In this document: positions 32,806 through 37,081 of the stretch, piece after piece
Position numbering within the stretch: the first letter of the stretch is position 1
Layout of the letters: each line of letters starts with the position of its first letter
Assembly (NCBI GenBank): GCA_029637525.1
Contig: CP072660.1
Location: 955,612 to 1,019,611 of the forward strand
Source of the DNA: Desulfurococcaceae archaeon MEX13E-LK6-19
GTDB taxonomy: Archaea > Thermoproteota > Thermoprotei_A > Sulfolobales > Desulfurococcaceae
Direction of reading: 5' to 3'
DNA: 64,000 nt
Position numbers and translations under genes: made by a program
Notes under the pieces: generated by a model
The model's input: the letters and a program-made list of their open reading frames with translations, nothing else
What the model was told of the DNA's origin: nothing
Database searches by the model: none

Positions 32806-33945
32806 ATGAACAAGCATGATATACTTAGTCTCGCTAGTAAATTCGTTGAAGAACTTAGCAAGCCGTTTGTTGGTAGAGAAGAAGAAGCCTATGCCATAGC
32901 TCTAGCTCTCATATCAGGTGAACATGTAGTACTTATAGGTGAACCAGGTACAGCTAAATCAGCTCTTGCACGTCGTGCAGCAGAACTAGTGAATGCAAGG
33001 TTTTTCAAGTACTTATTAACTAGATTTACTGAGCCCGACGAGCTCTTTGGGCCTTTGGATATAAATGCATTAAAGCATGGTAAGTATGTGAGAATAACCA
33101 AGAATAAACTACCTGAAGCAGAGATCGCATTTATAGATGAGATCTTTAATGCTAATTCCGCTATACTAAACATGTTCTTGACTATAATGAATGAAAGAAT
33201 TGTTTACGATGGATACAACGAGATCCATGTGCCATTATGGACGATGATTGCTGCAAGCAATAACGTGCCAGACGAGCCGGAATTACAGGCATTATACGAT
33301 AGGTTCCTATATAGGCACTTCGTGAAACCTGTCGGCGAGGACAAGTGGTTAAAACTAATAGATGCTGTCTGGAAAATCGAGGCAGGATACTATGAAAAAG
33401 CAGAACCCATTTTATCAATGGATCAGTTAAGAGCTCTAAACAAACTGTTGTTTGAAGTAGACTTGTCTAAAATAAAAGAGAAACTTGTGAAAATATATGC
33501 TGTCTTTGAAGACCATGGTATACATATAACTGATAGGAGAAAAGGAAAAGCTTTGAAGGCTATTGCTGGCTCAGCACTTCTCTCCGGTAGAATGGTTGCA
33601 GTTGAAGAGGATCTTCTCGTACTACGTATGATAGCCCCCAAAGACAGAGATGAAGCTGAACAAGTAACAGCAATACTATTCGAAGAAGTTAAAGCTAGTG
33701 AACGTTACCTCCGTGAACTAAATGAAATAGAAGCAAATATACGTGATGCAATGGCCTACATAGAGAGTATAACAGAATTCGAGCCCCGTCTTGTCGACTA
33801 TTTAAGGAGCTTTGAGACAGTAAGGGATCGTGTCAAAAAGATTGCTGATGAAACGACTGACGAGAGAGTTAGAAGGAAAGCCTTGGATGTGCTTGCCGAA
33901 ATAAGCGATGTAATATCGATGATAAGAAGTAAACTAGGGATCTAG
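32806..33945 (+). CDS. MoxR-type AAA+ ATPase
   Basis: A 379-residue MoxR/RavA family ATPase: Walker A GEPGTAKS at 45-52, Walker B IAFIDEIFN at about 107-114, sensor 1 in IAASNNVPDEPELQALYDRF with the arginine finger nearby, and a helical C-terminal lid rich in charged coiled coil. MoxR ATPases act with VWA-domain partners as chaperones inserting metals or remodelling complexes. The partner gene begins two bases after the stop, so the pair is one operon. The ATG at 32806 lies 58 bases downstream of an AT-rich TATA-like stretch. Confidence 0.92.
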   Translation: MNKHDILSLASKFVEELSKPFVGREEEAYAIALALISGEHVVLIGEPGTAKSALARRAAELVNARFFKYLLTRFTEPDELFGPLDINALKHGKYVRITKNKLPEAEIAFIDEIFNANSAILNMFLTIMNERIVYDGYNEIHVPLWTMIAASNNVPDEPELQALYDRFLYRHFVKPVGEDKWLKLIDAVWKIEAGYYEKAEPILSMDQLRALNKLLFEVDLSKIKEKLVKIYAVFEDHGIHITDRRKGKALKAIAGSALLSGRMVAVEEDLLVLRMIAPKDRDEAEQVTAILFEEVKASERYLRELNEIEANIRDAMAYIESITEFEPRLVDYLRSFETVRDRVKKIADETTDERVRRKALDVLAEISDVISMIRSKLGI

Positions 33946-33947
33946 AA

Positions 33948-36278
33948 GTGTTTTCCTTCGATAAACTAAAGGAGAGAAAAGGAGTTATAAAAAACATTGA
34001 TTATACAGACCCTGTTGTCAAGTATAGAGGTAGGAAAGTATACAAGCTTGCCAAAATACTTGTTGACAAAGAGAAGCTGAGTATAGACTATATAACGGCT
34101 GTCGATATCTTCTACACATTCTATCTCCCATATCCTATTCTAAAAGATCCTATGGAGATAAGTGATAAACAAGGCTTCACGTCATATAAGATAATATCAT
34201 CAATGCTTTCTTCTAAGCATATACATGATATTAGAGGAAAAAGTGTAGCCGATAGTCTTCTCAGTAGCATAGCTGCAGGGATCTTTATATCAGAGCTGGA
34301 GAATGAGCTACAAGAAAGTACTGGTAATGCTGAACAAAAAGTTAAAGACAAAGAACAGGGAATTGTTACGCGTGATGAAACCATTAAGAAAGTTGTTGAA
34401 CGTGCTTTAAGTAACACGAAATCTGAGATTGATGGTATTAGAAAACTTAGGTATGTTATCGAGGGACAACAGCCGGGCACAGTAAGTATGATGGTGCAAG
34501 AAGAGTATGCTATTGAGTTAATTAGACTTGCAAGAAATACGGAAGTAAAAAAGATACTTGAACTAATATCGGGAGTAAAGCCTTGGAGTATTAATATCCC
34601 AAAGAGAAAACGTAGATCAAAGCATGGAGAAATAACTGGATATGAACTAGGTAGAGATATCGAGAGAATTGTTGCCTCGAACCTTGCTCTGCCTGATGAA
34701 TTATTCTACTTGAGATTCCTTGAAGGAAGACTTCTTTTAAATCAGAAAGTATTATCACATAGCATGGGACCTATTTATGTTCTTGTTGACAAGTGTTTGC
34801 CTGGCGATACACTGGTTTACACGAGTACGGGTGGTCTTAAGCCTATTTCTGAAATAAGGCTTGGTGAAAGAATCCTCTCTGTTTCCCCAATAGGTAGTTC
34901 CTTAGTGTTTACTGTATCAAAAGTAGTCTCTATTAGACCTGGGAGAGCTAGGGAAGTGTATAAAGTAGAAACACCCATGGGAACTCTTAATGCTACAGGT
35001 AATCATGTTGTAATGATTGTTAGAGACAATATGCTTATTGAGACAACCATAGATAATATAGATTATGGCGATGAACTATTAATGCCAACGCCGGAACTAC
35101 TTAATAAAACATGTAGAGATAATTTTGCTGACCAAGAAGTAATCCTTCTTGGGTTATTGACTGGAGGTAAAATAAGTATAGAAGATGGTATCGTCACAAT
35201 ATGTTTTAGAAACAAAAACGTCATAGAGAAATACAAGGATGTATTGAGCACACTTGGCAATTACTATGTCTATGGAAACTGTATCTCATTACCGATTAAA
35301 GAAAAAGCAATTCAAATACTGTATAAGAACTATGAGAGTATCTTTAGGAATGATGATGTAAAGTCTATACCAGATTCTTTGACTAGACTGTGTGGGAGAT
35401 CCCTTTCGTTATTCTTGGCTGGGGTAATTGATGCTTGTGGTATTACTGCTAGTGATAAGATAATCATGGTTTTTAGGAACGGAATACTTGCCCGTCAAAT
35501 ACATCTCTTATTGCTCAAGCAGGGAATAATGAGTAGAATCATCGAGGAGTATGGTTCAAAAGTATTCAAGATAACTATAGATAGAAGTAACCTTGTAAAA
35601 CTTGTTAGAAAACTTCCTTTACGAAATATAAAACACGAAAACATTGCCTCAAAAGAAATAAGTAATGACTTAGAGCAAGCTAAGAAACATGATTTCTTGT
35701 ATACAGTTCCTATAACATCAATAAAGTCTGTAGGCGAAGAAATAGTCTATGACATAACTCTTGAAAACGGGAATAGATTCTTTGCAAATGGATTTATAGT
35801 CCATAATAGTGGGTCTATGGATGGAATCAAAATGGTTTGGGCAAAAGCAGTCGCTCTAAGTCTCTATATGAGAGCCCTTAAAGAACATAGAGAATTCTAC
35901 TTCAGGTTCTTCGACAGTATACCCTATCCTCTTGTGAAGTTAAGCAAGAAGCCTAGCACTAAACAAGCCCTTAAACTCATGGACTATATAGCCTCGATTA
36001 AGGGGAGTGGAGGAACGGACATATCAAGAGCATTAATGCTCGCATGTAATGATATAAGATCTGGTATTACAAAAGATGTAAGCGATATAGTATTGATAAC
36101 CGATGGTGTTGATAGAATAGCTGAATCACTGATCTCTCATAATTTAAGGAAAGCCAATGCAAGACTTATTTCAGTAATGATATTTGGTGATAATAGGTCT
36201 CTCAAGAGACTTTCAACAAAATACTTCTCGGTGAGGAAACTCGGTACAGAAGAGATCCTAAAGATTGTTGAAGCCTAG
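33948..36278 (+). CDS. VWA-domain protein (MoxR partner) interrupted by an intein
   Basis: 776 residues before splicing, 438 after. The N-terminal 270 residues are helical, as in CoxE/YehP-like MoxR partners. The VWA domain begins at PIYVLVDK (about 275-282), is interrupted by an intein (283-620), and resumes with SGSMDGIKMVWAKAVAL. Joined, this gives the MIDAS motif D-K-S-G-S-M. Later MIDAS pieces are GGTDISRALMLA (Thr) and VLITDGVDR (Asp). A GTG start two bases after the MoxR gene implies translational coupling. Function of the pair is unknown; the radical SAM gene downstream may belong to the same operon. Confidence 0.92.
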   Translation: MFSFDKLKERKGVIKNIDYTDPVVKYRGRKVYKLAKILVDKEKLSIDYITAVDIFYTFYLPYPILKDPMEISDKQGFTSYKIISSMLSSKHIHDIRGKSVADSLLSSIAAGIFISELENELQESTGNAEQKVKDKEQGIVTRDETIKKVVERALSNTKSEIDGIRKLRYVIEGQQPGTVSMMVQEEYAIELIRLARNTEVKKILELISGVKPWSINIPKRKRRSKHGEITGYELGRDIERIVASNLALPDELFYLRFLEGRLLLNQKVLSHSMGPIYVLVDKCLPGDTLVYTSTGGLKPISEIRLGERILSVSPIGSSLVFTVSKVVSIRPGRAREVYKVETPMGTLNATGNHVVMIVRDNMLIETTIDNIDYGDELLMPTPELLNKTCRDNFADQEVILLGLLTGGKISIEDGIVTICFRNKNVIEKYKDVLSTLGNYYVYGNCISLPIKEKAIQILYKNYESIFRNDDVKSIPDSLTRLCGRSLSLFLAGVIDACGITASDKIIMVFRNGILARQIHLLLLKQGIMSRIIEEYGSKVFKITIDRSNLVKLVRKLPLRNIKHENIASKEISNDLEQAKKHDFLYTVPITSIKSVGEEIVYDITLENGNRFFANGFIVHNSGSMDGIKMVWAKAVALSLYMRALKEHREFYFRFFDSIPYPLVKLSKKPSTKQALKLMDYIASIKGSGGTDISRALMLACNDIRSGITKDVSDIVLITDGVDRIAESLISHNLRKANARLISVMIFGDNRSLKRLSTKYFSVRKLGTEEILKIVEA
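34794..35807 (+). other. Intein with degenerate LAGLIDADG endonuclease
   Basis: The 338-residue insert begins with Cys (CLPGDTLVYTSTGGLKPISE, block A), has a block B GNHVVMIV with the Thr-Gly-Asn-His, and ends with block F/G VYDITLENGNRFFANG...HN before Ser+1 of the host protein. The middle has two LAGLIDADG-like motifs, LLGLLTGGK and LAGVIDACG. In active enzymes the eighth residue is the metal-binding Asp; here it is Gly and Cys. Splicing residues are intact, so protein splicing should work while DNA cleavage probably does not. Confidence 0.92.
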
Positions 36279-36304
36279 CTATTACTTACATGGTGATTAG
36301 TAGG

Positions 36305-37081
36305 ATGAGCTATGATCCTATTGAGAGGGCGATGCTTGTCTCAAAGAATGTTTGTAGGAATGTGGATGGTATTGAAGAGAGATTGTATTATAGGTTCCGT
36401 GGAGGAAAATGGTATGGCGGTATAGCGTCGGCTGATGTTATTGGATGTAATATGGCTTGTAAATTTTGTTGGGCGTACTACTTCAGAGATAATATCAGAA
36501 AGGGGAAGTGGTGTAGTCCTTATGAAGCAGCCGATAAATTACTCTACATAGCTTCTACGAGAGGATACAAGTATGTTAGGCTAACAGGCGGAGAACCAAC
36601 TATATGTAGAAAGCATCTTCTCGAAATAGCGGCTATTGTTTCTTCAGAAAAGAAGTACTTTATTGTGGAAACAAATGGAATACTCCTTGGTTATGATAAG
36701 TCCTATGCTGAAGAGCTTGCTAGTATAAAGAACATAATTGTAAGGGTTTCATTCAAAGGAGTTACGCCTGAAGAATTCGCTAGACTCACTGGTGCGAAGA
36801 AGGATGCTTGGTACCTTCAGTTGAAGGCGTTAAAAAATCTTGTTGATGCTGGACTCGAGCCTGGGGAGCAAGTCTATCCTGCTGCAATGATTGGCTGGAG
36901 TGATGAAAAAGATATAGAATGGTTCCTCAGTGAATTACGGAGAATACATCCTGCTTTAACTGATGTTGACTGGGAGTACATTATACTATACGATCATGTT
37001 ATACGGTTACTCAAGAAAATGGGGCTATGGCCTCCAAAAAGAGCTGTTACACCAAACGGTATACCTAGCTGGATGATATAG
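36305..37081 (+). CDS. Radical SAM protein
   Basis: 258 residues from ATG 36305, which has GGTGA at 36292-36296; an ATG at 36290 would add five residues. It carries C48-X3-C52-X2-C55 in IGCNMACKFCWAYY, the [4Fe-4S] site, then RLTGGEPTICRKHL (the GGE SAM-binding motif) and FIVETNGI. The overall layout is close to pyruvate formate-lyase activating-enzyme-like archaeal radical SAM proteins. No extra Cys cluster (SPASM) is present. It lies 26 bases after the VWA gene and may act with the MoxR-VWA pair. The substrate is unknown. Confidence 0.85.
   Translation: MSYDPIERAMLVSKNVCRNVDGIEERLYYRFRGGKWYGGIASADVIGCNMACKFCWAYYFRDNIRKGKWCSPYEAADKLLYIASTRGYKYVRLTGGEPTICRKHLLEIAAIVSSEKKYFIVETNGILLGYDKSYAEELASIKNIIVRVSFKGVTPEEFARLTGAKKDAWYLQLKALKNLVDAGLEPGEQVYPAAMIGWSDEKDIEWFLSELRRIHPALTDVDWEYIILYDHVIRLLKKMGLWPPKRAVTPNGIPSWMI

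Follow-up and report, generated by a model that had tools for sequence, protein, structure and literature searches.

A class 1 intein in the MIDAS codons of an archaeal MoxR-linked VWA gene, probably placed by homing

The VWA gene in the 64,000-nucleotide stretch of DNA from Desulfurococcaceae archaeon MEX13E-LK6-19 that was analysed here (the window) is interrupted within its metal-binding motif, and we assign the insert, with a probability of about 0.82, to an allelic family of class 1 inteins homing to the MIDAS codons of the MoxR-linked VWA gene in hyperthermophilic archaea. The host reading frame (33948-36278, + strand; 776 amino acids) is open throughout, with the intein in frame as residues 283-620, and 88 homologues without the insert can be aligned to it. 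The N-extein (33948-34793, +; 282 residues) aligns with these uninterrupted homologues and ends in VLVDK, its last two codons, GAC AAG (34788-34793, +), encoding the MIDAS Asp-Lys, which is invariant in all 88. The intein itself extends from Cys1 to Asn338 (34794-35807, +; 338 residues) and is followed by the C-extein (35808-36278, +), which starts with SGSMDG and comprises SGSM, GGTDI, TDG, the remaining VWA domain and the stop codon, as judged by conservation and a Pfam VWA_3 match (1.2e-06) beginning immediately behind the intein. From these ends it follows that the insert lies between the Lys and the first Ser of DxSxS, and a protein of 438 residues (776 - 338) is expected after splicing. 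The original prediction, made from the sequence alone, had placed an intein inside DxSxS with the same boundaries and product length, and both junction and numbers proved exact. It further depended on insert-free homologues having the motif at this place, and D-K-S-x-S was indeed read in 88 of the 88 extracted (DKSGSM, one of them reading DKSSSM).

The nature of the insert, likewise proposed beforehand, is borne out by profile matches and modelling. Pfam Intein_splicing was matched with an E-value of 1.1e-14 for the whole protein and 3e-15 for the insert alone, and NCBIfam intein_Cterm (TIGR01443) scored above its cut-off, with intein_Nterm just below. AlphaFold2 modelled the two splicing halves with confidence and the middle with low confidence, the best structural matches of this model in Foldseek were inteins, and the window intein is predicted to adopt a Hint fold. 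Blocks A, B, F and G of a class 1 intein were all located together with the splice residues, namely Cys1, T68-x-x-H71 in block B (T68 at 34995-34997; G69-N70-H71 at 34998-35006, +, with His71 at 35004-35006, by alignment of the same-site inteins), D320 in block F, H337-N338 and Ser+1 (AGT, 35808-35810, +), so that the Cys, block B His, terminal His-Asn and Ser named in advance are all present in the alignment. Blocks F and G (35745-35807, +), the YDITLENGNRFFANGFIVHN region ending in His337-Asn338, were assigned from TIGR01443 and the alignment. A feature that had gone unmentioned is an Arg in place of the auxiliary His of block F, and splicing may be slow because of it. Judging by its residues, the intein would excise itself via Cys1, Asn338 and Ser+1 and rejoin DK to SGSM. 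No Cys was found near the N-junction when the alignment was inspected for a redox trap there, and any additional Cys of the window intein lies within or beside its dead endonuclease region.

The expected pairing of the host, as a VWA protein, with a MoxR ATPase agrees with its neighbourhood. The VWA gene starts two bases past the end of a gene for a MoxR-family AAA+ ATPase (32806-33945, +; Pfam bpMoxR 1.3e-64, AAA_5 4.3e-29), which has no intein in the window genome, and is directly followed by a radical SAM gene (36290-37081, +; Pfam Radical_SAM 5.1e-20), its neighbour in AUK150 too. In the spliced protein the MIDAS would be complete (D-K-S-G-S, GGT, TDG), with ligand positions invariant in the 88 homologues, and the eight-residue segment at the junction is the most conserved among 435 in the host (rank 0). 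Adjacent genes for a MoxR and a C-terminal-VWA protein with a complete DxSxS-T-D MIDAS are also found in the bacterial systems RavA-ViaA, NorQ-NorD and CbbQ-CbbO. Unlike these, the present pair belongs to a separate archaeal lineage and is interrupted by an intein; its similarity to RavA and ViaA is weak, with scores below the curated cut-offs (PRK13531 for RavA, 168.5 bits against 681; PRK10997 for ViaA, 29 bits against 500). The AlphaFold2 model of the precursor region, with a mean pLDDT of 59 and without a resolved first VWA strand, was too poor for metal binding to be judged from it; with the two MIDAS halves separated by the inserted Hint domain, it is plausible that the precursor is unable to bind metal before splicing.

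Two LAGLIDADG motifs can be recognized in the window intein, both degenerate, which again was no part of the original prediction. The first, LLGLLTGGKI (35145-35174, +), has lost the catalytic Asp seen in LLGYILGDGHI of Archaeoglobaceae A1, and the second, LAGVIDACG (35415-35441, +), carries a Cys for the catalytic acid of LRGLFDAEG. Pfam LAGLIDADG_3 gave 16.6 bits against a cut-off of 22.5, and the window copy lacks the two acid-bearing motifs of an active homing endonuclease. The 410-residue intein of Archaeoglobaceae A1 (a MAG; L043/L090/L099) has both acids (LLGYILGDG and LRGLFDAEG; Pfam 95.3 bits), its motifs appear intact, and the endonuclease region of the window copy can be aligned with it. 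From the remaining same-site inteins the LAGLIDADG domain is absent. These are mini-inteins of 141-144 residues in genus g5, 144 in AUK150, 156 in S9B1_HD70, 167 in S141 and T11, 170 in ex4484_204 and 193 in the second Archaeoglobaceae genome.

Same-site copies were sought by a DNA pattern scan (G-x-x-V-H-N-[S/T]-G-S-M) of one genome per species over 84,980 species in GTDB, and by homology searches. The scan gave 11 matches, seven of them inteins, all seven in the same host family and at the same site; the other four (L039, L044, L046, L047) were due to chance, as were both viral matches (L050, L051) and a match in G460 with an in-frame stop inside. Homology searches contributed genus g5, with the same-site intein in three species. 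The site is filled in 11 genomes including the window, nine in the class and two in Archaeoglobaceae, which belong to another phylum. Within the class (229 genomes) the host was found in 194 genomes and the intein in 9 of these 194, the insert being missing from about 95% of host-bearing relatives; among about 15 full hosts in Archaeoglobi, two are filled. These counts are lower bounds, since the scan missed G004, G017 and G026 though the pattern is present in them. A looser pattern, applied to 398 genomes across the phylum, returned only five of the same cases and one chance match. An apparent interruption of the host in G118 was a contig split. A second, diverged VWA copy (L130, G278:C65) stops at a contig end (position 13564) just before the MIDAS (...AFYVL); this may be a coincidence, or the assembly may have broken at an intein.

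Intein blocks are present, and the junction residues invariant, in the 11 genomes, and the intein of ex4484_204 shares the block F Arg of the window copy. The other same-site inteins are 25-39% identical to that of the window, a range so low that several old invasions are possible rather than one recent spread. In mutual matches they outrank every other-site intein tested from the same genomes, and for this reason were treated as one allelic family; the AUK150 intein seemed to match one at another site, but this proved to be its own N-part, located on the neighbouring contig. Due to long branches the intein tree is unresolved, and the patchy distribution forces at least 6 changes on the host tree. 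For the mini-inteins of S141 and T11, a dN/dS of 0.056 (exteins 0.036) indicates purifying selection, presumably for splicing.

Serine codons fall into two classes, AGY and TCN, which cannot be interconverted by one-base changes without passing through another residue. At the +1 Ser, AGY is used by 11 of 11 filled genes vs 38 of 88 empty ones (P 1.2e-5, from a two-state model on the host tree, fitted to the empty genes). The mark was spotted by eye prior to testing; among 76 tests of flanking positions and codon classes it was the sole clear outlier, at about 9e-4 after correction for these 76 tests. An independent-pairs test gave 3-4 concordant and 0 opposed pairs, too few for significance, and the motif's second Ser had no excess of AGY. 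Where a filled gene falls within a group of TCN relatives, as in the window, ex4484_204, S9B1_HD70 and Archaeoglobaceae, it always has AGY. As the codon class should be irrelevant to protein splicing, the mark points to homing or co-conversion: at the DNA level it fits an endonuclease recognising AGY or a co-conversion of flanking DNA at invasion, as known for the MCM inteins of haloarchaea, whose extein flanks are co-converted when the intein invades (PMC10643990). The latter also resemble the present family in their patchy invasion of one conserved site and the altered flanking host codons, but co-convert an amino-acid change (Pro to Ser) instead of a synonymous codon-class mark. The DNA around the site thus suggests arrival of the inserts as mobile elements, not as inbuilt switches.

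We propose that a LAGLIDADG endonuclease once cut intein-free genes at the MIDAS codons, and that the intein would have been copied in by repair, which may have carried flanking DNA along, as the codon mark and the apparently intact motifs in one relative suggest. The window copy would then have lost both catalytic acids, and most relatives the whole domain. Splicing of the precursor, for which the residues are present, would restore the metal site by joining DK to SGSM. Since only precise deletion or efficient splicing would give a working VWA protein, the splicing domain would be kept; it would persist because the site tolerates no scar. In general, inteins are found where their host proteins are most conserved (PMC2814812).

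The placement had been taken as a hint of an activity switch. In a switch of this kind the unspliced VWA protein would bind MoxR and, without a metal site, be unable to engage its client, with splicing controlled by heat, redox, metals or the partner. Such a regulated switch has some appeal by analogy with NorD (PMC9976466) and CbbO (PMC4660213), in which MIDAS mutants still form the MoxR complex and lose their action on the target, and with other inteins known to splice conditionally (PMC7765530); the purifying selection on the splicing domain after endonuclease loss and the intein-bearing state of both partners in AUK150 may be read in the same direction. We nevertheless regard it as unlikely, as selection on splicing is expected even without regulation, the general conserved-site rule accounts for the placement, the insert is missing in about 95% of host-bearing genomes, and the synonymous mark at the junction indicates arrival at the DNA level. 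Neither does the N-junction have a neighbouring Cys for a redox trap, extra Cys being confined to the dead endonuclease region and its immediate surroundings, and no positive evidence for control of splicing by a host or environmental signal was found in sequence or distribution. Very unlikely is a post-translational checkpoint, in which an unspliced VWA protein on the MoxR ring could not grip its client and the ATP-site intein of the partner would act likewise in one relative; were this true, splicing would time the action of the MoxR-VWA machine.

Repeated independent invasion by unrelated inteins, all preferring the most conserved codons, would explain the low identity among lineages, the poor resolution of the intein tree and the changes forced on the host tree. 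It appears improbable to us, as inteins sharing this site score far higher against one another than against inteins at other sites in these genomes, and as the window and Archaeoglobaceae copies can be aligned over the endonuclease. That the intein is degenerate, splices poorly and leaves the host inactive or partly active, as a pseudogene in the making, could be concluded from the block F Arg and the decayed endonuclease. The retention of all essential splicing residues, the frame open over 776 codons, the intact MIDAS residues of the exteins and the occurrence of the same Arg in ex4484_204 make this highly unlikely, and homing to the MIDAS codons is the reading that we prefer.

With its blocks A, B, F and G, Hint fold, Cys1/Asn/Ser+1, conserved-site placement and endonuclease decay to mini-inteins, the family is like other class 1 LAGLIDADG inteins and mini-inteins (PF14890/PF14528), for instance the archaeal VMA and PolII inteins or the DnaB and DnaX mini-inteins in the PDB. 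It differs from them in having a VWA metal-site protein as its host instead of a nucleic-acid enzyme or P-loop NTPase, and the original prediction was right to call such a host unusual. In Vint proteins the Hint domain stands behind the VWA domain. These eukaryotic proteins (PMC2362128) also unite VWA and Hint domains in one polypeptide; here, by contrast, the Hint domain interrupts the MIDAS itself and has splice residues at both of its ends. No description of this site was returned by full-text literature searches on inteins hosted by VWA, MoxR or MIDAS proteins; the main intein surveys, which were beyond reach, may list it. A metal-site adhesion domain is hereby added to the hosts of inteins, and a single site in two archaeal phyla displays successive stages, namely a full intein whose endonuclease motifs are apparently intact, a dead-endonuclease copy and mini-inteins. 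The synonymous-codon mark offers a simple homing trace that separates DNA-level arrival from protein-level function and is applicable to other intein sites.

Some of the genomes carry inteins at other sites. In AUK150, a MAG (G006; L036, L037, L102), both partners have one within a key motif, which is the MIDAS for the VWA protein and Walker A for the adjacent MoxR (GEPG/C...SHN/TAKSALARR, slashes marking the junctions); the MoxR intein has apparently kept one LAGLIDADG acid and lost the other. The only other intein found in the window genome (G000:C1:1435707-1436741; L001/L038) lies beyond the window, in Walker A of a secretion-type ATPase (GEMASGK/S...VHN/TTLL), and seems to have Ser1 and degenerate LAGLIDADG motifs. 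Several MAGs with the VWA intein (among G229-G235) are intein-rich, each giving 4-14 matches to Intein_splicing in which a single intein is sometimes counted by its halves; the window genome, by contrast, has two inteins.
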